Assembly (NCBI GenBank): GCA_021162935.1
Contig: JAGGXR010000147.1
Location: 1 to 38,542 of the forward strand
Direction of reading: 5' to 3'
DNA from: Deltaproteobacteria bacterium
GTDB taxonomy: Bacteria > Myxococcota_A > Polyangia > HGW-17 > SLPX01
DNA length: 38,542 nt
The notes under the pieces were generated by a model. It did not search any database. It was not told where the DNA came from and worked only from the letters and a program-made list of their open reading frames with translations. Numbering within the stretch: position 1 is the first letter of the stretch; each line of letters starts with the position of its first letter. Shown piece by piece: positions 5,517 through 33,997 of this stretch. Made by a program: the position numbers and the translations under genes.

Positions 5517-6563
5517 ATGGCGCAGGATCACCCAGGTGGAGAACCCACAGAGCCGCCGACACCAAAACGGCTCCAAAAGGCGAAGGAACAGGGCCAAATC
5601 GCCAAGAGCCGCGACCTGTCCGGCGCGGTCATCTACTGGGCCGGTATCGGCGTCATCCTGGGCACCACGTCGATTATGGCCGGCCGAGCCCTGGAAATCA
5701 CGAGGGCCTTTCTGGGCAGACCTGAGATGATGACCGCCCATCCGGGCGCCTGGCTCGGATGGGCCATGACCAAGGCGCTCGTCATGGTGGCCCCACTGCT
5801 TGGCGTCACCATGCTCGCATCAGCGGTCATCGGAGCCGCCCAGGCCCGCGGCGTCCTGACCCTGAGCACCATGAAGCCAAAACTCCAGAGCCTCGACCCA
5901 ATCAAGGGTCTGGGCCGCATGTTCGGCAAGGACGCCCTGTTCAACCTCATCAAAACGCTCATCGTGTTCGCGGTCGGGGCGATCTTCCTTTATTCGCTGC
6001 TCAAGACGGACCTGGTGGCCCTGGTCAGCCTGACGGGCGTGCGACCAGACCGAGCAGCCCAAGGAACCTGGTCACTCGCCAAACGCCTCCTGGTGGAAAT
6101 GGGCGGACTGTTCGTGGTAGTGGGCCTGGCCGATTACATGTACCAGCGCCATCGCCACTACAAGCGTCTCATGATGACCAAGTACGAAGTGAAACGCGAA
6201 AACAAGGAATCCGAGGGCGACCCGCAGCATAAGGCGAAGCGCCGCCAACTCCACCAGGAAATCCTGCAGCAGGCCATGGTCCAATCGGTGGAGAAGGCGG
6301 ACTTCGTGGTGGTCAACCCAACAAGGCTGGCCGTGGCCATGCGGTACCAGGACGGCAAAGACGCCGCTCCGGTCGTGGTCGCCAAAGGCCAAAACCTCAT
6401 GGCCCAAAAGATTCGGGATGCAGCCAAACGCGCCGGGGTCCCCATCTATCGCGACGTATCCTTGGCGCGGGCTCTATGGGAACTGGAACTCGATCAGGAG
6501 ATTCCCGAAAAGCTGTATGATGCCGTGGCGGCGATCCTGAAAATGCTCGAAGCGGAACGATAG
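5517..6563 (+). CDS. flhB/sctU: Type III export switch protein, FlhB/SctU family, with NPTR instead of NPTH
   Basis: The 348-residue inner-membrane protein has the standard N-terminus EPTEPPTPKRLQKAKEQGQ and SRDLSGAV, then four hydrophobic segments (about residues 38-55, 85-110, 145-165 and 190-205), LQSLDPIKGLGRMFG, and a basic linker MTKYEVKRENKESEGDP. The cytoplasmic domain contains VVVNPTRLAVAMRY. In this family Asn-Pro of NPTH is where the protein cuts itself to switch export specificity; here residues 267-270 are N-P-T-R (AGG at 6324-6326). It could serve a flagellum or an injectisome; no other apparatus gene lies in the window, so I leave this open. The ATG at 5517 has only a weak AGG upstream. 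The next two genes may belong to the same export system. Confidence 0.93.
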   Translation: MAQDHPGGEPTEPPTPKRLQKAKEQGQIAKSRDLSGAVIYWAGIGVILGTTSIMAGRALEITRAFLGRPEMMTAHPGAWLGWAMTKALVMVAPLLGVTMLASAVIGAAQARGVLTLSTMKPKLQSLDPIKGLGRMFGKDALFNLIKTLIVFAVGAIFLYSLLKTDLVALVSLTGVRPDRAAQGTWSLAKRLLVEMGGLFVVVGLADYMYQRHRHYKRLMMTKYEVKRENKESEGDPQHKAKRRQLHQEILQQAMVQSVEKADFVVVNPTRLAVAMRYQDGKDAAPVVVAKGQNLMAQKIRDAAKRAGVPIYRDVSLARALWELELDQEIPEKLYDAVAAILKMLEAER

Positions 6564-18535: not shown

Positions 18536-19032
18536 GACTCCTCGTCTGCTCGACGGACCACCGACACCCTTCCACCACAACGCTTGACTCCGTTGGATGC
18601 TCGTGTGGACGCTCGTGCACCCATGATGCCAGTCGTCGTTTGCCTCCTGCCATTGTCACACCAGTGGGCATCTGTCAAACAGCGCCAATGACCGCACAAA
18701 ACCGCCACACAACTTGCAGGCCAGCTCGGCGTTCCCGCCTGAGCGCGCCAAAGGCGCGCCGGGTCACAGAGCGTCCGAGTCCGACGCCACGCTCGCGGAA
18801 AGGCCGTGGTCTCGCCAGGCGCCGGGCAAACGGACAACACGGACACACGGACGACGCAGGCGGCCTTTGGCCGCAGCGCCCACGTGCGCCCGGGCCGGAC
18901 GGCGATCGGGCCTGGTCGGGCCTGGGGGCACTCTGGCCAAATTGCAGGCCTGGTGCTATTGTGATTGGGCACTGGTTTCGACGATGATTCGTGCCTCGTC
19001 TGGATGCAAAGGGCCTCTTTGGGAGGGAAGTA
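18536..19032. other. Structured intergenic region without a gene
   Basis: This gap of about 500 bases lies between divergent mfd and the RCC1 lipoprotein gene. It contains two tight GC hairpins, GCGCGCC/AAA/GGCGCGC at 18743-18759 and GCGGCC/TTT/GGCCGC at 18860-18874, and one copy of a 31-base repeat (18883-18913). Open frames across it have no recognisable content. It presumably holds the promoters of both flanking genes; none is clear by eye. Confidence 0.6.
18883..18913 (+). repeat. 31-base repeat, copy 1
   Basis: The sequence beginning cgtgcgcccgggccggacgg matches 21159-21189 with one mismatch in 31 bases, including an exact stretch of 25 bases (18889-18913). Both copies are on the plus strand in intergenic DNA, about 2.3 kb apart. 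Confidence 0.75.
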
Positions 19033-20445
19033 ATGATTGACGTGCGGTCCTGGATCTTTTTCGGGTTGTTGTTGATATTGCCCGGCTGCTCATTGGACTT
19101 TCCCGCTGCGATCGACGGCGGATGCATGAATTGTGATGCCGACTCTTCTGACGCCGAACCCCACGATGCATCCACGGATGCCGACGGCGGCTCCGCGGTC
19201 TGTGGGAACGGCATCTTGGAGTCGGGAGAGGCCTGTGACACCAACACATCCTGTGGGGATCTCGGCCTTTCGGGCGATGCGCTGGTCGATTGCTTCGACG
19301 ATTGTATGACCGTGGACACGAGCACCTGCTGGCATTGTGGCGACGGTGTCTGTTCCGCGGCAGCCGGAGAGACACCTGCTGCCTGCCCGGTGGACTGCCG
19401 GCCCCTGTCCGTGGGATGGAACCATTCCTGCCGCTTGGATTCCACGGAGGTGTGGTGTTGGGGCTTGAATACCCTTGGCGCTCTGGGCAACGGAGGCAGC
19501 ACGAACAGCAACGTGCCGGTGCACGTGGTAGAACTCGACAACGTGGTCCAGGTCTCGGCCGGAACGAGGCACAGTTGTGCGGTGGACGACAGCGGGTCTG
19601 TGTGGTGTTGGGGGAGCAACTCCAACGGCCAACTCGGAGATGACACGACGACGAATTCACCCATCCCCGTCGCGGTCCAGGGGATCGGAGACATCATTCA
19701 GGTGGCGGCAGGGCGCTACCATACCTGTGCAGTGGACAATCACGGACAGGTCTGGTGCTGGGGGGGGAACATAAACGGCCAACTTGGCAACGCCAGCAAC
19801 GTGGATGAGCACACTCCAGTGGAAATCCTGGAAATCGAGGGGGTGGTCCACATTTCCGTGGGCCACAACCATTCCTGCGGCATCGACGACCAGGGCCGGC
19901 TGTGGTGTTGGGGGTACAACGAATACGGCCAACTCGGCCTGGGAAATACCAGTGACCGTTTCGTTCCCTTCGTGGTCACCTCCCTGTCGGGAGTCGTCCA
20001 GGTCGATGAGAGCTACAGCCACACCTGCGCGGTCACCGACCAACACCAGGTTTGGTGCTGGGGGCGCAGCTCCAGTGGTCAACTCGGCCAGGAGACCACC
20101 GAGACCTACATCGACGAACCGCTCCTGGTTCCGGATCTGGCAGACATCGTGCAGGTGAGTGTTGGGGCCTACACCACCTGTGCGCTGGACGACCAGGGCC
20201 AGGTTTGGTGCTGGGGTGGAAACTCCCACGGCCAGCTCGGCGACGGCACCTTGACGAGCAGGTGGCACCCCGGCGTGGTGCTGAACCTCCAGGCTGCAGT
20301 CGCGGTGGAAGTTGGCGACGAGACGGCCTGCGCCGAGGTCTTCAACGGCTCGGTCTGGTGCTGGGGACGCAACGAGAACGGCGAGCTGGGAGCCGGTCTG
20401 ACCATCGACCACAGCTCCGATCCTGTGCAGGTCGAGCGCTGGTAG
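19033..20445 (+). CDS. RCC1-repeat lipoprotein, seven-bladed propeller
   Basis: The 470-residue product starts at the ATG at 19033 after GGGAGGG. A lipoprotein signal (WIFFGLLLILPGC, lipobox L-P-G-C) is followed by a short Asp-rich linker and a Cys-rich segment (VCGNGILESGEACD, HCGDGVCSAAAGETPAACPVDC) of the kind common in myxobacterial surface lipoproteins. From about residue 123 there are seven RCC1 repeats, each with a (S/T)C before VWCWG and a GQLG turn, enough to close a seven-bladed propeller. Every blade has the same two cysteines, so an intrablade disulfide is likely in this exported protein. Bacterial RCC1 proteins are usually protein-binding surface domains; the target is unknown. 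Confidence 0.9.
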   Translation: MIDVRSWIFFGLLLILPGCSLDFPAAIDGGCMNCDADSSDAEPHDASTDADGGSAVCGNGILESGEACDTNTSCGDLGLSGDALVDCFDDCMTVDTSTCWHCGDGVCSAAAGETPAACPVDCRPLSVGWNHSCRLDSTEVWCWGLNTLGALGNGGSTNSNVPVHVVELDNVVQVSAGTRHSCAVDDSGSVWCWGSNSNGQLGDDTTTNSPIPVAVQGIGDIIQVAAGRYHTCAVDNHGQVWCWGGNINGQLGNASNVDEHTPVEILEIEGVVHISVGHNHSCGIDDQGRLWCWGYNEYGQLGLGNTSDRFVPFVVTSLSGVVQVDESYSHTCAVTDQHQVWCWGRSSSGQLGQETTETYIDEPLLVPDLADIVQVSVGAYTTCALDDQGQVWCWGGNSHGQLGDGTLTSRWHPGVVLNLQAAVAVEVGDETACAEVFNGSVWCWGRNENGELGAGLTIDHSSDPVQVERW

Positions 20446-21211: not shown

Positions 21212-21241
21212 TTGACAGTCGGCTTTGGCGAACCCTATTGT
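21212..21241 (+). promoter_or_regulatory. Putative sigma-70 promoter of the VWA/tubulin-like block
   Basis: A perfect -35 TTGACA (21212-21217), an 18-base spacer and TATTGT (21236-21241, four of six consensus positions) lie about 60 bases before the VWA gene start. The predicted leader would be about 50 bases. Confidence 0.5.
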
Positions 21242-21300: not shown

Positions 21301-23748
21301 ATGAAATCAACGATGAAATTCGGACTTGCCACGATCCTGTGGGCAGCACTGATCCCAGCGGGATCGGCCCAGGCCAATCCAGGCAAGACGCGCCTCCGCG
21401 TGGCCGTGGTGATCGATGCATCAGGCAGCATGAAGGTCCAAGACCGAAACCTCCTGTCACGAGTGGCGGCCAAGCTCTTTGTTGACCTGGCTGGTCCGCA
21501 GGACGAAGTGGGCATCGTCGAATTCGGCACCAGGGCCAAGCTCATCGACCGGGCCTTCGTCAAAGACGCTGCGGCCAGAAGGAGGCTCTTTGCTGCCATC
21601 GATAAAGTCGGCCGCTCGGAAGAATGCACCGACTATCGGGTCGGACTCAAGGCGGCGCTCTCCATGTTCAAGGGTAAGCCGGCCCCGGGCGAGCGACGGC
21701 TGATTATCTTCCTGACGGACGGCAGCTATGACCCGGATCGGGCGAATCCAGCCTATTACGCAACGCTCAATCCAGAACAAAGGACGAGCCTCTACGGGCC
21801 CAAGGTGCAGGCGTTCTTCGACAAGCTCAAGGCCGACCCCCTGTTCGCGCAGCGTCCCTGCCGCAACAAATATGCACTGCTCGAGCCCGGCGCCCGGGCG
21901 GGTTTTTTGCGGGTCTTCGACCAGTTTCTCAAAAAAGAAGTAATCCCGTCAAAGGCGCGCGTTTTCGTCATTGGATTCGGATCCGATCTGGGCCGCACGA
22001 ATGCACGGGGCAAGCAAGCCCAGACCCTGTCCGAATCCCTGGCACTGCTCAAGAAACTCGCCCGAGTCACCAAGGGCAAGGCGCTCATCGAACATGACGT
22101 CACCAAGATTCCCGCATTCTTCGCCCAGATCTTTGCCGCCCTAGTGGGCGCTCCGGTGGAAAGCCTACCGGGCGCCAATCAGAAGGCGCCCTACCAGTTC
22201 GAAGTGGTCAAAGGCACCAGAGCGGTCGCCGCCGTGGTGCCCGTCCTGGCGGACAAGAAATTCGACGTGGCCATCCGACGGGTTGGTGGAAAGGCCGCCC
22301 CGGCCGGCACAAAAACCAGCGCCAAGCCGACCGGCAAACAAGCAGCCCTCAAGCAAACGGAGACCGTGGTGACTCCAACCCGGGCACGCCACGACGACGA
22401 GATGGGACAGGGAAGACACAAAGGGCAGGTACTCGCCGGCTATCGCCTCCTGTGGCTGGACCACCCCAAGCAGGGAACCTATCGCCTCGTGGCCCGGTCG
22501 GGAAAGAAGGGCCGCTTCCAAGCGCAGGTCATTATGGACGTGGGGCTCAAGCTGGCCTGGCAGGCACCCCTGCCCAAGCCAATCTACCCGGAACGCAAAC
22601 AGGGCAACATCACGTTTCGATTTGCCCTCCGCACCGCCTCGGGCAAGAAAGTTTCCGGCTTGAGCAAGAAGTTCATGCAGGGCATGCGGTTCTTTTGGCA
22701 ACTGAACCGCAAAGGCGTCGTGGCCCCTGTTGCAGCGGGCCAGCCCCAGTTCGACCCAAGCCACCCCATGGAAAGCATGGTGGCCCAGATTCCCACCGCC
22801 AAACTACCAGAGGGGACCTACAGCCTGGACGTATGGGCGGCCCACGACAAGGGTTTCTTCGAACTCCAGCACCTCACCTTTCACTTTCGGGTCATCGAGT
22901 ACATCAAGATGAGCATGGTCTGGTCCACAAAGGACTTCCATATCAAGTCCAAAGAAGGCTGGTCCCTCGACCGTTGGGTCGAGGCGGCTCCGGATCGAGA
23001 CCTCAAGGCGGTCGAGTGGTTCGTGCTGGACCTGTCCCGCATCCCGAACCGCGACCTCCTCGTGATCAAACTGTCGAACAGCACCAAAGATTGTCACGTC
23101 TCGGGCCGAAAGATTTCTGCGAATCACGTCAAGGTCTGTTTCCACGAGAAGAGCCAGGGAATCCGACTGGACCTTGGTCTCAAAACTTGGACCAAGGCCA
23201 GAAAAAAGAATGCGTCCTTTGCCGGCACCGTGACGCTCACCGCCACCACGCCCGCGATCTTCAAGGGACCCACATCCTGGCAGACCAAAACCAAGGGAAC
23301 CATCGTCGCATGGACATGGAAGGACTGGCTTTCCTTCTACCGGAATTGGATCCTCGCCGCCCTCATCGCCCTCTTCATTTTGATCTGGATCATCGGCCGC
23401 ATTCTGGCGGGCGCCTTCGCGCCCAAAGCCACGCTCTACTACCGAGAACTCGAGGACAGCTCCGACGAGGCGAGTCGATTCGCTCTGGGACGGCGCGTCA
23501 AGTCCCACCTCCCGTTCAAATCCGCCAAGCATGATATCGGAGGCCACAACGGCAAGCCGCGCAGTGGCAAAACGCTCGCCACCATCATCGCCGCCAGGGG
23601 CGGAGGATTCCTCATCCAACCCCACAGCGCCGTCACTGCCACCGAAGACGACGAAGAACACCGCGAGATCTTCAGGGGCCGATACGACGACCACTACAAA
23701 ACCGGCGACCAGTACGAATTCTGGGTCACCAGGACGCCCGAAGACTGA
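21301..23748 (+). CDS. Membrane-anchored von Willebrand A domain protein
   Basis: The 815-residue product has a signal peptide (GLATILWAALIPAGSAQA) and then a VWA domain at about residues 30-270 with an intact metal-binding MIDAS, D-A-S-G-S at 39-43, and LIIFLTDGSYD downstream. Residues 280-675 are beta-rich and probably form Ig-like exported modules (FRFALRTASGKKVSG, TYSLDVWAAHDKG). One membrane helix at about 682-702 (ILAALIALFILIWIIG) leaves a cytoplasmic tail of about 113 residues. VWA domains bind protein ligands through the metal ion. The gene follows a TTGACA promoter and is first in a block with a tubulin-like protein, an association known for this tubulin subfamily, so it probably reports or transmits an envelope signal to it. 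Confidence 0.9.
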   Translation: MKSTMKFGLATILWAALIPAGSAQANPGKTRLRVAVVIDASGSMKVQDRNLLSRVAAKLFVDLAGPQDEVGIVEFGTRAKLIDRAFVKDAAARRRLFAAIDKVGRSEECTDYRVGLKAALSMFKGKPAPGERRLIIFLTDGSYDPDRANPAYYATLNPEQRTSLYGPKVQAFFDKLKADPLFAQRPCRNKYALLEPGARAGFLRVFDQFLKKEVIPSKARVFVIGFGSDLGRTNARGKQAQTLSESLALLKKLARVTKGKALIEHDVTKIPAFFAQIFAALVGAPVESLPGANQKAPYQFEVVKGTRAVAAVVPVLADKKFDVAIRRVGGKAAPAGTKTSAKPTGKQAALKQTETVVTPTRARHDDEMGQGRHKGQVLAGYRLLWLDHPKQGTYRLVARSGKKGRFQAQVIMDVGLKLAWQAPLPKPIYPERKQGNITFRFALRTASGKKVSGLSKKFMQGMRFFWQLNRKGVVAPVAAGQPQFDPSHPMESMVAQIPTAKLPEGTYSLDVWAAHDKGFFELQHLTFHFRVIEYIKMSMVWSTKDFHIKSKEGWSLDRWVEAAPDRDLKAVEWFVLDLSRIPNRDLLVIKLSNSTKDCHVSGRKISANHVKVCFHEKSQGIRLDLGLKTWTKARKKNASFAGTVTLTATTPAIFKGPTSWQTKTKGTIVAWTWKDWLSFYRNWILAALIALFILIWIIGRILAGAFAPKATLYYRELEDSSDEASRFALGRRVKSHLPFKSAKHDIGGHNGKPRSGKTLATIIAARGGGFLIQPHSAVTATEDDEEHREIFRGRYDDHYKTGDQYEFWVTRTPED

Positions 23749-23919
23749 CCCCCGATTGGTTGTCTGCTTGACACAAATTATCGCAAGCGGCAAAGTGCCA
23801 AAAGGTTCGGTCGGACCTTGGCTTCGCTGCGTCATGAGCGTGCAGGAAGCTTCTCTGACAGGGCCGATACGGGACAAAGGGACGTCGATGTCACAAGCGC
23901 ATAACAAGGGCTTCTGGTT

Positions 23920-23925
23920 AGGAGG
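23920..23925 (+). promoter_or_regulatory. Ribosome binding site fixing the tubulin-like start
   Basis: AGGAGG sits directly before an in-frame ATG at 23926 and six bases before the ATG at 23932. Normal spacing makes the second ATG the start. Confidence 0.85.
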
Positions 23926-23931
23926 ATGGGC

Positions 23932-26900
23932 ATGCTTATTCAAGACATGAAGGTCGCTCCCCACTATTTCGTGGGTCTCGGCGGATGCGGAAGCAAAATC
24001 GTCAACGAAATCGCGCGCAAGGTGAAACGGCGTAAGGACGAGTACGAACGGTACAGGAACCTGCTCCACTTCTTTGCCGTCGACACGGACATGGCCGAAC
24101 TGCAACGCTGCGAGACCGTGGATGCCTGGATCCCCATTTCGAACTTCGACAAGCCCCAGTACGTCAAACATGCGTTCGGCATGCTGGGCAATCCCGAGGA
24201 TCCCTATTTTACCCAGTGGTGGCCCGACTTCTACCAGCCTCGCAAAACGACTGGGGCGGGCGCGGGCCAAATCCGCATCGAGTCCCGGCTGTCGCTCTTC
24301 TACACGCTCAAGAATCATCCCCAGTACACCCAAACCATGATGAACGCCATCCGGGCGTCATTCGACGTGGGCGAACGATTCCGGGACGACAACAAGGCGC
24401 CCACGATCCACGTGTACTGCTCACTCGCCGGAGGAACGGGCTCTGGCAGTTTCCTGATGATGGCCTACTTCCTCAAATCCCTGGTGGCGAGACACCGCCG
24501 GCCCCTCGTGGTGGGCAGCTTCGTGCTGCCGGGCGTGTTCGCTGCCATGGGCGTACCCTATAACCAACTCCAAAAAATCCAGGCGAACGGGTATGCGGCC
24601 CTTCAGGAACTCGAATACCTGCAGAGCGCCGGCGAAGAAGAAGGCAGGCAGGTCCCGTTCCATTGGGACCCACATGGCACCGAGGACACGCTCGTGACCG
24701 AGCGGCCCTTCGACCAGGTCTATCTCATCGACGACATCGGAGCGCTGCACGGTGTAATCGCGGACGCCAAACAGATCTATCCGCACATCGCAGACTCGGC
24801 CTACACACAGATTTTCTCCGAAGACCCAGAGAAATCGCAGACCATCGTGGAACGCGATCAGTCCACCCTGGACAACGACGAGCGGGAACTCGGAGTCCAG
24901 GACGTGCAGCATTACACGAAGCGCTACGGCTCCTTCGGTGTGTCCATCATGACCGTGCCCGACGACGACATCCTGCAGTACTGCTCGAACCGCTACGCCA
25001 TCGAGGCCTTGAACCTCGCCTTTGCCCTGCCTGAAAGCGACGACGTGGAAATCAAGACCTCGGCGGACCGAGACAAACGGGACCGCATATTCGTGGCCGA
25101 CATCCAAAGTCGGGCCAGAATGCAGGGAGAGGCTGGCCGAATGTTCCAGTCCATCCTGGACTGGTCGGACGGCTCGGCGGGAGGCAGCGGCGCGGTGGAC
25201 ACGTACCTACGCACGCTGGACGAACTCCTCGAACAACTCCACAAACCCATGGGGAACCTGCCAGACATCAAAGAAGACTGGTTACTCGGCATGTCCGGAG
25301 ACCAGGAATCGGTTCGGGTCGAGGTACGGCGCCGCTACGACAACCGAAAGAAAAAGCTCACTGAGGCCAAGGAGACCATCGACCAAATCGCCACGAACCT
25401 GGCCAAGGAGGTGCTCGACGAGGCCTACGATCACTCGGTGGCCAAGGTTCTCAAGACGGCCGGACCGATCCACGAACGGCTGTTCTATCTGCGCCTCGTG
25501 GAAAAACTGCAGGAACGCCAAAAGGCGGCCGAAGAAACCTTCCGAGCGGCCGAGTCCTCTTTGCAAGGCATCGACGACTCCTTTGCCAAGTACCACGACG
25601 AACTCGTCTCCACAGCGCCCATCGGCCTCGTGGAGAAAGTGACGGGCAACAAGGATTACGAACAGGACGCGGTTCCGAAATTCGTGCGCTGGTTCCGCGA
25701 CAGCGTCAAGAAGCACCAGGAAGCGTCTCTCATCAACGACGGGCTACTCGACTTCTACGACGACCTGCTCGACGCTCTGGTGGAGCGGCTTGACCGCACG
25801 GCCACCCTGTTCGACGAACTACTCGCCATCCGAAGCAAACTGGAAGACAAGAGCGAGGACCTCCTCAAGTACGGCGTGCCCAGAGAATTCGGCGGCGAGA
25901 CAACTGAGCACGTGCTCGACGTAGAGGTATTCCAGGACTTCTTGGACCCGGAGCACAGCCGTCTGTGGAACTGGCTCTTCGGAGCCATGGAGCAGGCTGC
26001 CGACTACAATCCTGAAGAAATCTCGCAACTCATCCAAAGAGCGCAGAACGAAGCCCGCAGGCGGCGCCACATTCCCGACAAAGTAATCGAAGCCTTGGTG
26101 GGCCACGGCAAAGAAATCTGGGAGGAACGCATCCGCGGTAAGGACAAGCCCGACGACAGGGACGAACTTGGGCTGAACATCATCGATGGCCTGGAGCAGG
26201 AGGCCCGCTGGGCCCTGGCCTGGGAGGAACTCAAACACAAGTACAACGACAAGCGGCCCAACCGCCTGCCGAGCGATGAGTTCGAAGTGATCGTCGAGGA
26301 CATGTCCAAGGATCGCATCGAATCCTACATCAACGCAAAGGTGGCTCACGCGGCGCAAAAGTGCCAGCCCTTCTTGCAGTTCGATCCTGCGGGGAAGGTG
26401 ATTCCGCCCAAAAAATACGTCTGCCTGTACAAAGGCTATCGGGAGGACGACACCTTCAAACGTCGCCTGACCAACATCCAGGGCTTCGCCATCAAAGAAG
26501 GCGACATGATGATCACCGGCGACCCGAAGCGCGTCGTGTTCTACTGGAACGAGGTGGGGGTCCCCATCTACAAAGTCTACTCGGTGGACCAGTACGGGGC
26601 GTCGTACGAGACCGTGAAGAACTCCGAACTGGGACGCGGGGAGTCATACGACAAAAGAGCGGTCTATACGTCCGCACGCCCCGACGTCATCTTGCAGCGC
26701 AAGAAGTACGGAAGCAAGAAATGCCCCGACATCCCGCTCCACACAGACCGGAACTGGGAGGGCGCTTTCGACCCGTATCTCCTCGGCGTGTTTCCCATCA
26801 CCCAGCGGGCCATCCTGGAAAATCGTGCCCGACTCCATTGGGAACAGGAACGAGCCAAGGCCCTTGCGGCAAGCCAAGGAACCTCGGGCGATGTGAGACT

Positions 26901-27237
26901 GTTCACCCTGGCGCTCTGGGCAAAAGCCATCGATCGCATCGAACAGCAGTATGTGTTCACAAACGATCATCTCAATGAATCCGACCGGGCTCTGGGCAAA
27001 TGGCGGGACACGGCGTTCCGCAACTTCGGCAAGGCCAAGACCGTGATCCGTGAATGGGTGACGGACAAGGTGGAAGAGGCCTTGATTCAGCTCAAGGCAA
27101 ACCGCGACTGGTCGCCGCTTGGCGAGTACCGACGCAATCTCAAAGATGCCCGCGTGGGCATGGAAGACAACGAGGTGGAACTGGTCCGCCAGGAACTCGA
27201 TGCACTCGAAGCCGAAATCAATGCCTTGAAGGGCTGA
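23932..27237 (+). CDS. Large tubulin/FtsZ-like GTPase-type protein
   Basis: The 1101-residue product starts with the Rossmann-like nucleotide loop YFVGLGGCGSKIVNEIA (GxGGxG at about 15-20), followed by LLHFFAVDTD, and carries the tubulin signature loop AGGTGSGS at 166-173. It therefore belongs to the tubulin superfamily, in the large tubulin-like group (Pfam Tubulin_2; related to the FtsZ-like families linked to VWA proteins). These loops bind GTP and allow filament formation in the superfamily. The C-terminal 600 residues are long charged helices, coiled-coil like (KKKLTEAKETIDQIATNLAKEV, LEAEINALKG at the end), and are not found in FtsZ. There is no signal peptide or membrane segment, so it is cytoplasmic. 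Upstream is the VWA gene, downstream two membrane proteins. Filament formation is inferred, not shown. Confidence 0.88.
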   Translation: MLIQDMKVAPHYFVGLGGCGSKIVNEIARKVKRRKDEYERYRNLLHFFAVDTDMAELQRCETVDAWIPISNFDKPQYVKHAFGMLGNPEDPYFTQWWPDFYQPRKTTGAGAGQIRIESRLSLFYTLKNHPQYTQTMMNAIRASFDVGERFRDDNKAPTIHVYCSLAGGTGSGSFLMMAYFLKSLVARHRRPLVVGSFVLPGVFAAMGVPYNQLQKIQANGYAALQELEYLQSAGEEEGRQVPFHWDPHGTEDTLVTERPFDQVYLIDDIGALHGVIADAKQIYPHIADSAYTQIFSEDPEKSQTIVERDQSTLDNDERELGVQDVQHYTKRYGSFGVSIMTVPDDDILQYCSNRYAIEALNLAFALPESDDVEIKTSADRDKRDRIFVADIQSRARMQGEAGRMFQSILDWSDGSAGGSGAVDTYLRTLDELLEQLHKPMGNLPDIKEDWLLGMSGDQESVRVEVRRRYDNRKKKLTEAKETIDQIATNLAKEVLDEAYDHSVAKVLKTAGPIHERLFYLRLVEKLQERQKAAEETFRAAESSLQGIDDSFAKYHDELVSTAPIGLVEKVTGNKDYEQDAVPKFVRWFRDSVKKHQEASLINDGLLDFYDDLLDALVERLDRTATLFDELLAIRSKLEDKSEDLLKYGVPREFGGETTEHVLDVEVFQDFLDPEHSRLWNWLFGAMEQAADYNPEEISQLIQRAQNEARRRRHIPDKVIEALVGHGKEIWEERIRGKDKPDDRDELGLNIIDGLEQEARWALAWEELKHKYNDKRPNRLPSDEFEVIVEDMSKDRIESYINAKVAHAAQKCQPFLQFDPAGKVIPPKKYVCLYKGYREDDTFKRRLTNIQGFAIKEGDMMITGDPKRVVFYWNEVGVPIYKVYSVDQYGASYETVKNSELGRGESYDKRAVYTSARPDVILQRKKYGSKKCPDIPLHTDRNWEGAFDPYLLGVFPITQRAILENRARLHWEQERAKALAASQGTSGDVRLFTLALWAKAIDRIEQQYVFTNDHLNESDRALGKWRDTAFRNFGKAKTVIREWVTDKVEEALIQLKANRDWSPLGEYRRNLKDARVGMEDNEVELVRQELDALEAEINALKG

Positions 27238-27365
27238 CGTTCATGAAGCACTGGTCCACCGTCGAGGTGGACGGGCGCGTCCATGCATCGAAGTCATAGA
27301 ACCATGACGCTGCGGCGAGGCGGACCAGTCACGCTCCCGCCTGGTGACAAGGAGACGATACTCGT

Positions 27366-30209
27366 TTGATCATGGCGGTTTCGAATCCCACGCTCATTCT
27401 CGGTCTGGGCGACCTGGGTGGCCAGGTCCTGGCCCGTCTTGCCCTAGACCAACAGGAAAACGAGCCCAACAACGCAGTCCTGCTGTCCGTGGACCTGATT
27501 CCTCCCAACGAAGAGGAGGAATCGGACGAAATCGTTGCACGGCTCGCATCTGCTCCAAAATCGACTGACGACGAAGCACAACAGGGGGACTCGACGATCG
27601 AACGACTCACTTTGTCGGCGCCCCTTTCCGGCGCCGACCGTGACCGTGTCACCGCACTGGTTTCGACCCGCACGTGGAACCTGCTCACTCTGGACCATTT
27701 CCTGAGCTACTCGCCGGCCACGGACCTGATGCGGCCTCGGCTTTCGGTGTTCGTGGTGGCCGACCTGGCCGAAGAGCCGGTCCGTCAGGTTCTGGACGGC
27801 CTGGTCGAACTCGTGGCACGCACCCTCTTGAAGCGCTACAGCCACATTTTTTCCGCGCCGCGCCAAGCTGGCGAACAGCAGAATTTCGGCTTGTACCCCA
27901 TCCTGTTCATGGGAGACCTGCGGAGCGACGACCGGGCGACATCGTATTCGCAATGCCTCTCGTCCCTGGCCAAAAAAGCGCGTCAATCAGTGACCTGGTG
28001 GCCAGGACTCGGTACCGGGTCCTGTGTGCGACGCGTCGTCCTGTTCGACGACCAGACATCCAAGTACGTGCTCACCGACCAGCAGGTCGTGTCCTCCCTG
28101 GCCACGTTCTTAGACATGGCCCTGTTCTCCACGAACCTGGCGGATGCGCGCCGCCAGGAGTCCACCTGGCCGCTTGCCGAATTCCTGTTGGGCGCGCCCT
28201 CCGGTGATCCGGACGCGCTGTTCGCCACGTTCGGGGCGGCCACGCTGGACCTGTCGGAAGAGGCGATTCGGACCTATATCCGCAACCGGCTCGCCTTGGC
28301 ACTCGTCGACGGCATGAGGCCGTCGGAACCTGAGCCGCCCCTCGGGATGAAGCTGCGGCACATGTGGTGGCCCGAGGAACTGGATGCGCGCCTGCAACGT
28401 GGACACACGAACTCCGAAGAGCCTAGCGCGGCCGAGGAAATCGCCCGCCACCTACAGGACCTCTCGGGGGAACTCCAGAATCGATGTCTCGACGTGTCCA
28501 CGGACGACAGCCCCGAACGCATCCTGAACGACAAGTACAGTTGGCCCTGGTACGAGGAATTGACCAAACGCTTCACCGGGGTCTGCCAAGACTTAGAGGA
28601 TCGACTCCTGCCCCAGGCCGCCGAGGAGATCGACCGCGCCGGCCTGAACGTTGCCAAAACCGACTATGCGGAACTGACAGAGCAGGTGGATCGATGGGTC
28701 TGGCGGACCGCGGCCGGCTGGCACCATGGCAGGCAGCACCTCCAAGAACTTGCGATCGAAGCGGGCAGGCAGCGGGCCCAGCACGAAGAACAGGCCAAAC
28801 TCGTGGGTCCTCCGGACACGGGCCGGGTCAAAGCGGCCATCATGGAGGTCCGTTCCGTGGCGGACCGATGGCCGAGACGATGGCGCATGTGGACCACGGC
28901 GACGCTCGTGGTTGCGCTCCTTGTGGGCCTATTCCAGTTTTTGCCCAAATGGCTCTACGTCCGGTTCATTTATGAAAACACCGAGTACGTCTCCGCAGAG
29001 AAGGCCAAGTCGATCCAGGACCAGCTTGCGCGAGCCGCCCACAAAAAGGTGGCCGACCTGACCGGCCAAACCCAGGCCAGCACTCCAGCGGGCATGGTGC
29101 CCGATCCGCGTTACAATCCGCCCTCGTGGCTTGAAAACCCCATGCTCTTCAAGCTGCCGCCTTCGCGATGGGGCGCCCATCTCGTGGTGGACCGACCCTA
29201 CGTCTTCTTATGGCTCTTCGTCCTCTTCGGCGTGCTGGTCTGGCTCGTCCTTCGGCACCATTGCAAGCAGGTCGAGGCGGACATGGACGACGCGATCCGC
29301 TTCCTAAGACACCGTATCGAGGAATTGGTCGCCGCCCCGCACCAGTCGGCCCGTGAGTACTTCGAGCAGCGCGTCCAGTTCTCCCGCGACCTGTGGGTCA
29401 GAAAGCTGCTCACCCACATCATCGACCATGCCCACGAGGAAGTGGAACGCCTCAACCTGATCGACGAAACCCTGAACCAACTGCGCCATCGCTACCGTGA
29501 AGGGCAAAAGCGTCTGGGCGTCCGGTACGTCGGGCCTAACGATCAGGCCGAAGACCTGAGCGGCCTGTCGGTCCAGGACACCGACCCCTTCTATCGCAAG
29601 AACCTCGATCCGGAGATTCTGATCGACCTCTACCAATCCATCGCTGAAAATGAGGTGGCTCGAGTCGAGGAATTCTTCGACGAACAGAAGAACCAGGACC
29701 ATGGCAAAGATCCGCCCGATTGGCGCAGGGACCCTCGATTCGCCGAGGCAAAACGCATCGAGCAATACAGCAACAGCCTAATCGAAGGAGCTCTGGAGAT
29801 GCTCCATCCAGTGGGCGCGCTCCTGGAGACGCAAGGCAACCAGGTCCCGAGCATCTTGGCGTCTTTCCTGGCGGACCTGACGGGCAAGCTCTCCTCGGCC
29901 GTGGAACTGACCACCAAGCCCGACCAGGCGCTCACGAGACTCCTGCTCGTTCCCGAGCAACATGCCGAGCACTTTGCCGAGCATCTGGCAGAGCACTTCC
30001 AGACCATTGGACTGGCCGAGGCCCAGGGACAGATGCTCGATATCGTTCCATCGCGCGATCCCCAACGCATGCAGCTCCTGGTGGGCTATAGCGGTTTGAA
30101 GCTCGATCAGTTCCGCTATCTCAAGGCCGACCGTCCGCAAGGGCCCAGCAGGAAAACGCCTGGAGCGCCTGCGAAACACGTCAAAGACCAGCGGGAGGAC
30201 GCCCCATGA
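27366..30209 (+). CDS. Two-pass membrane protein with GxGxxG N-terminus, partner of the tubulin-like protein
   Basis: The 947-residue product starts TLILGLGDLGGQVLARLAL, a Rossmann or tubulin T1-type glycine loop like that of the preceding gene, and later has PGLGTGSC at about residues 214-221, reminiscent of a worn tubulin signature. It may be a degenerate paralogue of the tubulin-like protein; this is tentative. Two membrane helices (about 507-527 and 612-632) enclose an external loop of about 85 residues and leave large cytoplasmic parts on both sides. The C-terminal 300 residues are helical and charged (DMDDAIRFLRHRIEELV, VEEFFDEQKNQ). The start is uncertain: TTG at 27366 is 11 bases after AAGGAG and ATG at 27372 is an alternative. 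Its stop overlaps the next gene (ATGA), so the two are coupled. Confidence 0.85.
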   Translation: MIMAVSNPTLILGLGDLGGQVLARLALDQQENEPNNAVLLSVDLIPPNEEEESDEIVARLASAPKSTDDEAQQGDSTIERLTLSAPLSGADRDRVTALVSTRTWNLLTLDHFLSYSPATDLMRPRLSVFVVADLAEEPVRQVLDGLVELVARTLLKRYSHIFSAPRQAGEQQNFGLYPILFMGDLRSDDRATSYSQCLSSLAKKARQSVTWWPGLGTGSCVRRVVLFDDQTSKYVLTDQQVVSSLATFLDMALFSTNLADARRQESTWPLAEFLLGAPSGDPDALFATFGAATLDLSEEAIRTYIRNRLALALVDGMRPSEPEPPLGMKLRHMWWPEELDARLQRGHTNSEEPSAAEEIARHLQDLSGELQNRCLDVSTDDSPERILNDKYSWPWYEELTKRFTGVCQDLEDRLLPQAAEEIDRAGLNVAKTDYAELTEQVDRWVWRTAAGWHHGRQHLQELAIEAGRQRAQHEEQAKLVGPPDTGRVKAAIMEVRSVADRWPRRWRMWTTATLVVALLVGLFQFLPKWLYVRFIYENTEYVSAEKAKSIQDQLARAAHKKVADLTGQTQASTPAGMVPDPRYNPPSWLENPMLFKLPPSRWGAHLVVDRPYVFLWLFVLFGVLVWLVLRHHCKQVEADMDDAIRFLRHRIEELVAAPHQSAREYFEQRVQFSRDLWVRKLLTHIIDHAHEEVERLNLIDETLNQLRHRYREGQKRLGVRYVGPNDQAEDLSGLSVQDTDPFYRKNLDPEILIDLYQSIAENEVARVEEFFDEQKNQDHGKDPPDWRRDPRFAEAKRIEQYSNSLIEGALEMLHPVGALLETQGNQVPSILASFLADLTGKLSSAVELTTKPDQALTRLLLVPEQHAEHFAEHLAEHFQTIGLAEAQGQMLDIVPSRDPQRMQLLVGYSGLKLDQFRYLKADRPQGPSRKTPGAPAKHVKDQREDAP

Positions 30210-33200
30210 CCGCAACGCTGGCCATTGCGACGAAAGCGGCCCTGGACTCGGCTGCCTGTCTCCAAAACCACTGGAAACAGATCCTGGGCGTCCTCATCGG
30301 TGCCTTGGTGGTCTCGGTGGTCATGGCCCTCATCCGATGGTCCATCCGCCGCTCCATCGAACCCAGGACCAAGTCCGTCTCCTTCGGGGGACTGTGGATC
30401 TCCGCAGCCTTACTACTCGTGGTCATCTACCTCCTTTTCATCGCTTTCTTGTCCCTCACGGGAGGCGGCTCCTTCGAACGGTTCGTGTTCGAGCATCTCG
30501 GGCTGGCCAAGGCCCTGCCCTCGGTGGCATCGTGCCTGCCCGCCGACGCGCAAAAGCTCTGGTCCCTGGCAACACCCTTCTACTTTCCCATTTTGTACGC
30601 CGGCATCCACACGCTCTTCATCCTGCTCGTATTCCTGCTTCTGTGGGGTCTGGTGGGCTTCAAACGGGCCTTTGCCGCGCCAAGAGCGGAAAAGAAAAAG
30701 GCCGACTCGAACCGGTCGGACCAAGAGTCGGAGCACCAAGACGAATCGGCTGGATCGATCGCGCCCATGCCCGAAGGGCTCCTGGCGCCCGCGCTGGGGC
30801 CCATTTTCCAGGTCTTCGGCTACTGGATGGACCTCAAGCACCTCGAAGCCCGGCACAAGGCCTACTTCGATGCACTCGTGTTCACCCTGCGGGTGGCCAA
30901 GTGGATCGCCCTACCGGCAGCGTTCCTGGGCACCCTGCCTGCGGCGGCCTGGATCGTGATGGCCCTGCTCATCGGGGCGTTACACGACAACCTGCGGGCG
31001 CCCGTGACTGCACCGGAAAAAACCAAGAAGGACGTACCCAAGGCCGCCGAAACCAAGCCCGAGCAGAAGAGCGTCTCCATATCTGCCATCATCAAGACCC
31101 TGTCCAAAAAGGAACATGGGCTCGAAATGAAACCCATGGGGGCCAGACAGGCCGTGCCGGGACGGACCGTGGAGTCGGATCATCTCGACCAGGCCGCTGC
31201 CATGGCGTTGGTGTCCGAAAAGCTGCAGTTGAATCACCAACTCTACGCGCATCAAGAAGCCTGTTTCTCCCACCTCGAAGCAGGAGAAAACGTGCTGCTG
31301 GCCACGGCCCCCCTTTCGGGACGAACCACAGTGGGAGACCTCCTGGCCCTCGACCAGGTGCTCACCAAGGGCCAGGCTGTGCTGTTCCTGTGCCCGAGCG
31401 CCGAATCCGCTGCCCAGCGTCGCCAGGCGCTTTCGTCCGTCTTGTCCCGAGCCGATTGGGACTGGAACGTCTACGTCCACGACCTCTGCAACGATCCGCC
31501 CCAAACGTTGGACCTCAACATGCGCCAGCCCCACGTCCTCTTCACGACGGCCGAGGTGCTCCACGCGCAGTTTCTGCCCAACGCGAGAGACTGGGAGCTG
31601 TTCCTGCGCGGCCTGGGCCTCGTGATCGTGCTTGGGGTGGAATCCTACCGCGGCGCCCAGGGGGCGAATTTTTACCGACTCGCGCGACGGTTTCAAAACA
31701 TCTGCAGCCAATACGGCGCCCAGCCACGCTACTTCTGCACGGCAGTGCCCTATAGCCTCGAAATCCGTTCCTTCGCCGAAAGTCTCATCGGTGTTCCCCT
31801 TACGTACGTGGGCCCGGGCATGGACACAGCGCCCGAACCCAGCCGAGAGATCCTGACCGCCAGACAGAAAACCATCCACACCGAGGCAGGAGAGGTTCCC
31901 CTACCGATCCTCATGGCGGGCCTCGTATCAGGGCTCGGTCACAAAGCCGAGTTGTTTGGGTTCGACGAAACCCTGACCCGCGAAGAACGAGACCGCATGG
32001 CCGAGGTCCTCCTCAACCTGGGCAAAGCCGACCTGGGCGGATCGAGGCACGAACTCAAGGGTGGTGCCGGCGCCTCGGCACCAGGAAGGCATGCCGAGGT
32101 GGTGGTGGCCCAGGCCGATGCGTCTCAGGTGCGCCTCATGCACGAGCTGACCCGCCACTTCGGGGGCGACCTGGTTGAAGTGGCCGTCACCCTGGAGACC
32201 ATCAAGACGACGGCCACGGAAACGGCCCCGAAGGGATTTGCAGCCCAGAGCATAGACTTTGGCCTCACCGAGGCCGCCTTCGGCGGCACAAAAAACTCGG
32301 CGCCGCCGCAGACCTCCTCAGCCAATGAAGAGGCTGCTGCCGAGGATGAACCAGATGAAACAGGAGAGCCATCGAAGGATGGCGATGATCGGTCCCATGA
32401 CAGCAACGCCGACGAGGCGATGGACGGCAGGGCCGACCAGAACCAGCCGGCCCTGTCGAGTTCGGCAATCGGGCAAGACACAAAATCCGAAGAGACTGCG
32501 GCTGCGTCATTGGACGCAGAGACCGCTGAAGACGACGCGCCCCACTTCAGCCAGGCCACGTCGGCCACCATCGTGCTTCCGGCGCCCCAGCCCTTCGTGG
32601 AGTTCCTCATCAGCCAGGGTCTGGTGGGGACCGACAGGAGTCACCCCTATCTCGGCCTCGGCTGTGAACTCGTGACGAACCCAGACAACGAGCCGGCCCG
32701 CCGCAAAAACCTACGTTGCGCCATGGCCGAATCCGCCTGGACCAAAGAAGAACTCGTGGCCGAATTCGGTCGGGACCTCGTCGAACAGGAGATCGACGAC
32801 ATCGGCGATGCCGGACACATCGCCCATGAACGACGCACCGAGATGAACAGTGTCACCGGCCTCGTGCACCAGGTACCGGTCCTGCGATACGTGGGCCACC
32901 CACTTCCCCATCGCAGCGTCTCCATGGACACGGTGGCCGATCGCCACGTGACGGTCATCGACCGACACACCAAGACAGAACTACGCCGCCTGGACCGGGT
33001 ACGCGCCCTGGCCGACGCCTACCCGGGCATGGTCTTTTTGGCCTCGGGCCGCCGCTATCGTATCTGTGCCCCAGAGGACCAGGTGGCCTTCGACGACGGC
33101 TTCATCCATGCGGATCCGTATGAACGCCCCGTGATCACCTCAAAAATCCGCACCATGACCTTCGACCAGGCACACGGCGAACGGCGGAGGCGGACCCGCC

Positions 33201-33997
33201 GGTCAAAAAATCGATTCCATGCTGGCGCGTTCTGGAACGCGGCTACTCCCACGAATGCGCCCCGGTCGGCATCCAGTCCCGGGACCCTTGGACCCCAAGC
33301 AGGCTCGGCCCAAGCCAAGACCAGCAGGGCCGGACTGGCCAGCCAAATCCACTCGATCAACGGGATCGACCCGGCGGATCCAGCTCAGGACGAACGCCGA
33401 ACGGACAGGTCCGATCGACGGACCGCCATGGCGCATAGCATCGGAGGCAGTGCCTTCTTCCTGTGGTATCCTTGGGTCTTTTTGCACGAATGGGTCTCGG
33501 GGGTAAAGACCTACGATCGGACGGGCAAACTCCTGGACGTGACCTACTACGCGGACCCAATCGAAACCAGGTACCGCACCAAGGCGGCTGTTCTCGCGTT
33601 TCCAACCCAGGCGCCGTCCAAGGCCGTCCTACATGGCCTCGTTCACCTGTTCGGACACGTGCTGCCAGCCTTCGTACGTCACGATGCCTTCGATCTGGAC
33701 ATCGCCTTCGTCGAATCCTATGGCCCGCACGAACTGCCAGCCATCGCCTTCGTGGACCGACATCCCGGTGATGCCGGCTTCGCCAGGGCCGTGACCACCG
33801 AGGTGCTCAAGCACCTGTGTTACTGGAGCTACCGCATGATCGCCGACTGCCCGGCCCATTGCGAATCACCATACGGCTGCTTTTCCTGCATGCGTTCGCT
33901 CCAGTGCCACGCCACCCACGGCCAGGCAGAAACGGACATGGACCGCGAGGCCACCATGTCCCTGCTCGAAGAACTCATGGGAGGCTTCATCCGATAG
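30206..33997 (+). CDS. Membrane-anchored pseudo-helicase, MrfA/YprA-like with DUF1998
   Basis: The 1263-residue product begins with three to five membrane helices (about 25-43, 63-85, 126-152 and one or two at 224-260). Residues 335-540 align by eye with the first lobe of MrfA/YprA/Hrq1-type SF2 helicases: LYAHQEACFSHLEAGENVLLA, then a Walker A equivalent L-S-G-R-T (370-374, Lys replaced by Arg), L-G-V-E (476-479) in place of DExH followed by the family SYRGAQG, and TAV for SAT. Lobe 2 is reduced (LTREERDRMAEVLLNLG). An acidic linker follows, then the family tail NPDNEPARRKNLRCAMAESA and a DUF1998 domain with an intact cysteine cluster (CPAHC, GCFSCMRSLQC). ATP hydrolysis is unlikely, but nucleic-acid or protein binding remains possible. 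It overlaps the preceding gene and closes the block. Confidence 0.88.
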   Translation: MTATLAIATKAALDSAACLQNHWKQILGVLIGALVVSVVMALIRWSIRRSIEPRTKSVSFGGLWISAALLLVVIYLLFIAFLSLTGGGSFERFVFEHLGLAKALPSVASCLPADAQKLWSLATPFYFPILYAGIHTLFILLVFLLLWGLVGFKRAFAAPRAEKKKADSNRSDQESEHQDESAGSIAPMPEGLLAPALGPIFQVFGYWMDLKHLEARHKAYFDALVFTLRVAKWIALPAAFLGTLPAAAWIVMALLIGALHDNLRAPVTAPEKTKKDVPKAAETKPEQKSVSISAIIKTLSKKEHGLEMKPMGARQAVPGRTVESDHLDQAAAMALVSEKLQLNHQLYAHQEACFSHLEAGENVLLATAPLSGRTTVGDLLALDQVLTKGQAVLFLCPSAESAAQRRQALSSVLSRADWDWNVYVHDLCNDPPQTLDLNMRQPHVLFTTAEVLHAQFLPNARDWELFLRGLGLVIVLGVESYRGAQGANFYRLARRFQNICSQYGAQPRYFCTAVPYSLEIRSFAESLIGVPLTYVGPGMDTAPEPSREILTARQKTIHTEAGEVPLPILMAGLVSGLGHKAELFGFDETLTREERDRMAEVLLNLGKADLGGSRHELKGGAGASAPGRHAEVVVAQADASQVRLMHELTRHFGGDLVEVAVTLETIKTTATETAPKGFAAQSIDFGLTEAAFGGTKNSAPPQTSSANEEAAAEDEPDETGEPSKDGDDRSHDSNADEAMDGRADQNQPALSSSAIGQDTKSEETAAASLDAETAEDDAPHFSQATSATIVLPAPQPFVEFLISQGLVGTDRSHPYLGLGCELVTNPDNEPARRKNLRCAMAESAWTKEELVAEFGRDLVEQEIDDIGDAGHIAHERRTEMNSVTGLVHQVPVLRYVGHPLPHRSVSMDTVADRHVTVIDRHTKTELRRLDRVRALADAYPGMVFLASGRRYRICAPEDQVAFDDGFIHADPYERPVITSKIRTMTFDQAHGERRRRTRRSKNRFHAGAFWNAATPTNAPRSASSPGTLGPQAGSAQAKTSRAGLASQIHSINGIDPADPAQDERRTDRSDRRTAMAHSIGGSAFFLWYPWVFLHEWVSGVKTYDRTGKLLDVTYYADPIETRYRTKAAVLAFPTQAPSKAVLHGLVHLFGHVLPAFVRHDAFDLDIAFVESYGPHELPAIAFVDRHPGDAGFARAVTTEVLKHLCYWSYRMIADCPAHCESPYGCFSCMRSLQCHATHGQAETDMDREATMSLLEELMGGFIR

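Follow-up and report, generated by a model that had tools for sequence, protein, structure and literature searches.

A membrane-associated block of four genes combining a Tubulin_2 GTPase and a vWA protein with a likely pseudo-tubulin and an MrfA/YprA-type pseudo-helicase

Organization of the locus

The window analysed here, an entire contig (JAGGXR010000147.1; 38,542 nt) from the 5.1-Mb genome of a Deltaproteobacteria bacterium (GCA_021162935.1), carries four large open reading frames (ORFs) on one strand, referred to below as genes 1 to 4. They code for a vWA protein, a GTPase of the Tubulin_2 family (FtsZ-like-1 or FtsZl1), a membrane-anchored protein that is most likely a degenerate tubulin and a membrane-anchored pseudo-helicase of MrfA/YprA origin. 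The genes and their features are as follows (window coordinates).

21212–21241, forward strand: sigma-70-like promoter match TTGACA-N18-TATTGT (10 of 12 consensus positions; weak evidence)
21301–23748, forward strand: gene 1, vWA protein of 815 amino acids (Pfam VWA_2, 1.5e-9)
21415–21429, forward strand: metal ion-dependent adhesion site (MIDAS) D-A-S-G-S of gene 1 (residues 39–43)
23926–27237, forward strand: gene 2, Tubulin_2/FtsZl1 GTPase of 1103 amino acids (Pfam Tubulin_2)
24430–24447, forward strand: T4 GTP-binding loop GGTGSG of gene 2 (residue 169; invariant alignment columns)
27366–30209, forward strand: gene 3, likely membrane-anchored pseudo-tubulin of 947 amino acids (AlphaFold model, Foldseek and profile match)
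27366–28325, forward strand: tubulin-like N-terminal domain of gene 3, about residues 1–320 (structure matches and alignment)
28887–29252, forward strand: membrane hairpin of gene 3, residues 508–526 and 611–629 (hydropathy)
30206–33997, forward strand: gene 4, membrane-anchored MrfA/YprA-family pseudo-helicase of 1263 amino acids (profile and Foldseek matches to MrfA)
30278–30985, forward strand: N-terminal membrane domain of gene 4, residues 25–260, with four to five segments (hydropathy)
31304–31342, forward strand: degenerate Walker A motif of gene 4, TAPLSGRTTVGDL, lysine replaced by arginine (family comparison)
31616–31654, forward strand: degenerate motif II of gene 4, GLVIVLGVESYRG, lacking DE-x-H (compared with ordinary MrfA-type helicases)
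33644–33892, forward strand: MrfA zinc-binding (MZB/DUF1998) domain of gene 4, C-x6-C-x2-C-x6-C (Pfam MZB, 9e-8)

A preliminary description of this DNA, made from its sequence alone, had noted four same-strand genes with an ATGA overlap between the last two. The ORF coordinates agree: genes 3 and 4 share positions 30206–30209, and gene 3 begins with a TTG start codon. All four frames recur as homologous proteins across many genomes and are thus real genes rather than chance ORFs. The same description placed the block behind a TTGACA promoter. Such a site is indeed present at 21212, but four sites of this type were found against 2.3 ± 1.3 expected, a count so close to chance that the match alone carries little weight. 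Promoter and terminator scans of the region were uninformative.

Sequence and structure of the four proteins

The gene 2 product matches Tubulin_2 over residues 15–362 with an E-value of 3.6e-52 (178 bits against a Pfam cut-off of 27). Its GGTGSG loop is kept in all 81 homologues compared. Hydropathy profiles of the protein and its homologues contain no conserved membrane segment, and a search of the PDB with gene 2 gave a single chance-like match, located outside the tubulin domain.

Gene 1 encodes a signal-peptide-like N terminus, a vWA domain, one C-terminal membrane helix (hydrophobic segment at residues 684–702) and a 113-residue tail, a layout that its homologues share by hydropathy. Given the signal peptide and the single helix, the vWA domain is expected to be extracytoplasmic and the tail to lie inside. 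The MIDAS pattern hD.S.S recurs in 66 of 79 homologues, and a vWA gene is located upstream of the tubulin gene in 51 of the 71 loci with room for one. Both motifs named in the preliminary description, D-A-S-G-S and GGTGSG, could be located (at gene 1 residue 39 and gene 2 residue 169), and the Pfam match together with the adjoining vWA gene assigns the tubulin to the FtsZl1/vWA type, as had been proposed.

Gene 3 had been described as a ‘two-pass partner’. Its two membrane segments are there, and nearly all homologues have one or two hydrophobic segments at the equivalent site; the identification itself has to be corrected, since sequence comparison and a predicted structure indicate that the protein is most likely a degenerate, membrane-anchored member of the tubulin superfamily. 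Pfam detected a trace of the C-terminal half of Tubulin_2 (E-value 0.02, under the cut-off). Comparison of a profile of 39 gene 3 proteins with one of 32 gene 2 proteins gave a match of 95.8% over 191 columns; an earlier, narrower comparison had been weak (84.6%), and a PDB sequence search with the gene 3 profile yielded nothing useful. For the AlphaFold model (predicted local distance difference test, pLDDT, 77; predicted template modelling score, pTM, 0.62) nearly all top PDB matches found by Foldseek were TubZ, tubulin or FtsZ, mostly with probabilities of 0.8–1.00 but with weak E-values of 0.02–0.1, which is why we grade the tubulin identity as likely and not as proved.

The gene 3 protein retains a T1-like GLGDLGG (G-x-G-x-x-G) and aligns with the segment YGSFG...LP..D...Y...R of the tubulin protein. 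At the position of the T4 loop it has VADLAEE, and the T4 motif is missing in all 62 homologues; hence the name pseudo-tubulin. The long helices and the membrane hairpin that follow the tubulin-like domain would suit an anchor.

In gene 4, the helicase-like core seen earlier corresponds to a DEAD domain (Pfam, 5.6e-7); the MrfA zinc-binding domain (9e-8) had been missed. A profile built from 15 homologues matches the MrfA structure 6znp over 740 residues with an E-value of 3e-36. The AlphaFold model of residues 290–1263 (pTM 0.77) likewise has MrfA (6znp) as its top PDB matches (Foldseek E-value 4e-32; template modelling score 0.62–0.71 by target). The pseudo-helicase recognized in the preliminary description can thus be named as an MrfA/YprA derivative. 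In the model RecA1 and the canopy are confident, and the RecA2 region is largely short, of low confidence or disordered. Ahead of the core lie hydrophobic segments at residues 25–43, 65–83, 134–152 and 238–256 (homologues have three to six at the N terminus), so that membrane helices, as expected, occur in genes 1, 3 and 4. The first loop of the membrane domain is strongly positive; if there are five segments, the helicase core would be on the cytoplasmic side.

The motor motifs of gene 4 are degenerate throughout the family. The window copy has SGRTT as Walker A and LGVE as motif II. The Walker A lysine is lost in 34 of 42 homologues (replaced by R, E or Q) and kept in eight; none of 43 homologues has motif VI (QxxGRxGR), and every aligned copy departs from DE-x-H. 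In comparison, GK(S/T), DE(L/I/A)H and motif VI are all present in 12 of 12 ordinary MrfA-type helicases of this phylum, several of which occur in genomes that also carry gene 4. This family-wide comparison rules out a loss limited to the window copy. With Walker A, DE-x-H and motif VI lost, gene 4 is a homologue of MrfA that is not expected to be an active helicase.

In a phylogenetic tree the 42 long gene 4 proteins are split from the ordinary MrfA-type helicases with 100% support (Shimodaira–Hasegawa-like approximate likelihood ratio test, SH-aLRT), and the Walker lysine must have changed three times or more among them. On the simplest reading of these sequences, the motor was probably already disabled when the family began to spread, and erosion of the ATP site followed on several independent occasions. 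In the copies at loci L073–L077, L096, L114, L118 and L130 the Walker A lysine persists (SGKTT or G(S/A)GK(S/T)T) with motif VI gone; these are possible candidates for ATP-binding switches.

The decay of gene 4 bears on one alternative view of the block, namely an envelope- or vesicle-remodelling machine, as proposed in the accessible text of Makarova and Koonin (2010; PMC2875224), in which the pseudo-helicase would be a protein scaffold making no contact with nucleic acid. Besides that published proposal, three of the four proteins are membrane-anchored, the helicase motifs are progressively decayed and the zinc cluster is lost in some clades, all of which would agree with such a machine. However, RecA1 and the canopy, which form the nucleic-acid contacts in MrfA, keep their fold, and this goes beyond what a generic scaffold needs. 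We regard this alternative as unlikely.

Distribution and co-retention of the genes

The preliminary description had called for a check of whether the four genes occur together in distant genomes. In a phylum sample of 284 genomes Tubulin_2 was detected in 70 at an E-value ≤0.001 and in 66 over the Pfam cut-off, and when the gene 2 alignment was used to scan GTDB species genomes, 80 named loci were obtained. Neighbourhoods of 40 Tubulin_2 genomes have the order vWA–tubulin–gene 3–gene 4 in several families. Among the 49 loci with at least 5.5 kb 3′ of the tubulin gene, window included, gene 4 is found downstream of the tubulin gene in 40, and so is gene 3 (40 of 49). The block spans Myxococcota, Acidobacteriota (L096 and L145) and Gammaproteobacteria (L136, L140, L142, L146 and L150), with the gene order kept in all three phyla. 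Among the carriers are Polyangium, Enhygromyxa, Archangium, a Sandaracinus metagenome-assembled genome, Lujinxingia, Thermoanaerobaculia (Acidobacteriota) and Chromatiaceae and Methylococcaceae (Gammaproteobacteria).

Presence of gene 4 predicts presence of the tubulin. In the phylum sample Tubulin_2 was over the cut-off in 36 of 38 genomes positive for gene 4 and in 30 of 246 others (Fisher p 5e-25); a genome was counted as positive for a match at an E-value of about 1e-36 or better, a line drawn after the list had been inspected. Ordinary MrfA matches score lower and over a shorter span, and the two kinds are therefore well separated. Gene 4 without Tubulin_2 was seen in two genomes, G189 and G191, both of them incomplete drafts; a contig end lies close to genes 3 and 4 of G189. 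This genome is also the exception for gene 3, which is accompanied by Tubulin_2 in 36 of the 37 genomes positive for it.

The reverse does not hold: 30 of the 66 Tubulin_2-positive genomes lack gene 4. The prospect, raised at the outset as one that would speak against a system, that the tubulin gene would mostly be found without the others was thus borne out in part, whereas gene 4 without Tubulin_2 almost never occurs. From this asymmetry the block appears to be one subtype of the Tubulin_2 systems.

Linkage is not required for co-retention. In Chromatiaceae, gene 4 was found in five of 116 genomes, and all five are among the seven having Tubulin_2 (p 1e-7); a sixth gene 4 match is weak and limited to the zinc domain. 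Five Chromatiaceae tubulin loci have no adjacent gene 4, and in all five genomes gene 4 is located elsewhere; one of them, a Lamprocystis, has gene 4 in two copies and several tubulin genes. In Plesiocystis (G223) gene 4 and the tubulin gene are on different contigs. That the genes were repeatedly kept together after losing their linkage is difficult to account for unless they depend on each other functionally. The earlier suggestion of a membrane-tethered pseudo-helicase as a core part is upheld by these counts (40 of 49 loci; 36 of 38 and five of five genomes). As for copy number, G288 (Lamprocystis purpurea) and G395 have three and five Tubulin_2 genes, respectively, and two gene 4 copies each.

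Could the four genes be functionally unconnected neighbours held together by common descent? Many of the sampled genomes are related, and the co-occurrence tests are uncorrected for kinship. Still, the identical order in three phyla and the co-retention in genomes where the genes are unlinked already disfavour this explanation, and we consider it highly improbable. Joint travel of a tubulin and a dead helicase in three phyla suggests an undescribed cellular system.

Possible roles and relation to known systems

FtsZl1 proteins were described in association with vWA proteins, kinases, a GTPase and unnamed families in the accessible text of Makarova and Koonin (PMC2875224), where membrane remodelling was proposed. 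Our block is similar in that gene 2 is a clear Tubulin_2 protein with the GTP loop and adjoins a vWA gene, and in that kinases occur near many copies. Clusters containing Ser/Thr kinases are present near up to 18 loci, an upper bound since some matches are on the opposite strand and may be shadow ORFs; PP2C-like and FHA/vWA clusters are near seven loci each. These neighbours suggest control by phosphorylation. The differences are that the word ‘helicase’ is absent from the main text of PMC2875224, that a second, degenerate tubulin beside FtsZl1 is not reported in its accessible text and that Pfam detected neither the P-loop GTPase nor the OmpA genes of the described systems in the window.

Compared with MrfA/YprA (DUF1998) helicases, including those of DISARM (DrmAB), Dpd, Druantia and ARMADA, gene 4 has kept RecA1 and the canopy, and the window copy the zinc cluster as well; it differs in the loss of motifs I, II and VI and of most of RecA2, in its N-terminal membrane domain and in its tubulin partner. 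The main text of a 2025 survey of ∼52,000 YprA homologues (PMC12458937) contains neither the word ‘tubulin’ nor the word ‘vWA’; in the survey's accessible parts ‘membrane’ refers to an assay and not to membrane-anchored YprA.

Tubulin–vWA conflict systems centred on a GAP1-N2 GTPase are known from Firmicutes and Actinobacteria (Kaur et al. 2020, PMC7159879, accessible text). They too combine tubulin-family and membrane vWA proteins, the firmicute versions have two tubulin genes and cytoskeleton-like assemblies were proposed for them. Unlike the block, they have a GAP1 GTPase and FNIII-repeat proteins, neither of which was found by Pfam among the window genes; no pseudo-helicase is described and DUF1998/YprA is unmentioned in the accessible text of that paper.

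Pairing of active and non-hydrolysing subunits is familiar from γ-tubulin, αβ-tubulin and TubZ assemblies. By analogy, genes 2 and 3 recall pairs of an active and an inactive tubulin that serve in nucleation or capping, with the differences that gene 3 has no GTP loop at all and has a membrane hairpin of its own and long helical regions. Literature searches on Tubulin_2 with vWA, antiphage tubulin and membrane pseudo-helicases returned no description of the subtype in accessible papers. No paper naming the pseudo-tubulin or the pseudo-helicase was found; gene 3 or 4 may stand unannotated among the 2010 supplementary families A1–A2 and B1–B9. FtsZl1–vWA operons were already known, and the likely pseudo-tubulin and motor-dead YprA partners, of which we found no description, are newly named here.

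We tentatively favour, at somewhat less than an even chance, a joint reading in which the block is a four-component, membrane-attached subtype of the FtsZl1 (Tubulin_2)–vWA systems and acts as a scaffold of filaments at the membrane through which an envelope signal is coupled to nucleic acid. The link to nucleic acid is preferred because gene 4 keeps the nucleic-acid-contacting parts of MrfA and has a positive first loop and a putatively cytoplasmic core. In such a mechanism, gene 2 would form GTP-dependent filaments or caps at the inner membrane face. Gene 3 would be a non-hydrolysing template or cap, broadly comparable in this to γ- or α-tubulin, its hairpin pinning the gene 2 filaments to the membrane, and these filaments would receive a periplasmic or envelope signal through the vWA protein. 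At the membrane, gene 4, having lost translocation, would hold on to nucleic acid or partner proteins, thereby tying the filament to DNA or sensing DNA. Kinase, phosphatase and FHA genes beside many copies might add control by phosphorylation.

Several points weigh against this scaffold model. The pseudo-tubulin assignment rests on a Foldseek E-value of 0.02 and the 95.8% profile match. Zinc cysteines are lost in some gene 4 clades and Walker A is unrecognizable in others, decay that would be compatible with a purely structural role of gene 4 too. Neither a kinase nor a P-loop GTPase is among the Pfam-scanned ORFs of the window. According to the accessible text of PMC2875224, T6-H7 is not identifiable in the FtsZl1 family. 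Finally, the co-occurrence tests take no account of shared ancestry.

A more specific proposal, possible but rather doubtful, is an as yet undescribed class of bacterial membrane machine: a tubulin-based link between membrane and DNA, built from an active tubulin-family GTPase and two membrane-anchored partners, a pseudo-tubulin and an obligate motor-dead YprA protein that would retain nucleic acid at the envelope, and serving DNA import, interception of phage genomes or nucleoid anchoring. A role for FtsZl1/Tubulin_2 systems has been proposed since 2010, with a mechanism lacking; naming two once-anonymous partners provides testable parts, a possible filament anchor and a possible nucleic-acid contact. 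If true, the scaffold model would bring the YprA family, associated with repair and anti-phage defence, into a membrane cytoskeleton and supply another case of two enzymes converted to structural parts of one machine.

Alternatively, the block could be an anti-phage or other conflict system, analogous to the GTPase-centred tubulin–vWA systems of Kaur et al.: detection of an invader's protein or DNA would fall to the envelope vWA protein or the pseudo-helicase, and the assembled tubulin would act as response or effector. Its patchy spread would fit (Tubulin_2 in seven of 116 Chromatiaceae and 66 of 284 phylum-sample genomes), as would its occurrence in myxobacteria and Lamprocystis, taxa that the accessible text of Kaur et al. 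(2020, PMC7159879) connects with conflict systems of the multicellular or aggregative kind. DISARM, Dpd and Druantia have YprA helicases at their core, and one Lamprocystis copy is beside GmrSD and ADP-ribosylglycohydrolase genes. Yet the window copy sits amid housekeeping genes (holA, murJ, FlhB/SctU, mfd, SurA-like, asnB and cyclophilin genes are on its flanks), PADLOC matches are weak (best E-value 0.003) and PHROGs gave no convincing match, so a defence-island reading of the window was rejected. The four genes include no nuclease, methylase or toxin and no second helicase, and thus none of the DISARM, Druantia or ARMADA partners. The motor used by defence YprA proteins is lost in gene 4, and the GAP1 GTPase and FNIII partners were not seen in the window. 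On balance a conflict system seems somewhat unlikely.

Two other genes of the window deserve mention. The FlhB/SctU export-switch gene (5517–6560) follows murJ, and Pfam recognized no other flagellar or type III secretion genes in the window. An RCC1-repeat protein is encoded immediately upstream of the block (18991–20445); no link to the block was found.

Other Tubulin_2 loci differ in composition. A fifth conserved gene, of ∼770–930 amino acids, is located 3′ of gene 4 at L134, L136, L140, L145, L146 and L150; its hosts are Chromatiaceae, Methylococcaceae and Thermoanaerobaculia, and the two products tested had no Pfam match. Another Tubulin_2 subtype (L034, L036 and L037) combines vWA and tubulin genes with a gene of ∼680 amino acids and one of 1156–1366 amino acids; both large genes of L036 matched no Pfam family over the cut-off. 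At L043 (7752–10940) the Tubulin_2 gene is followed by a gene for a 1062-residue protein with weak similarity to HSP70/FtsA (actin fold), where an actin-like partner may take the place of genes 3 and 4.

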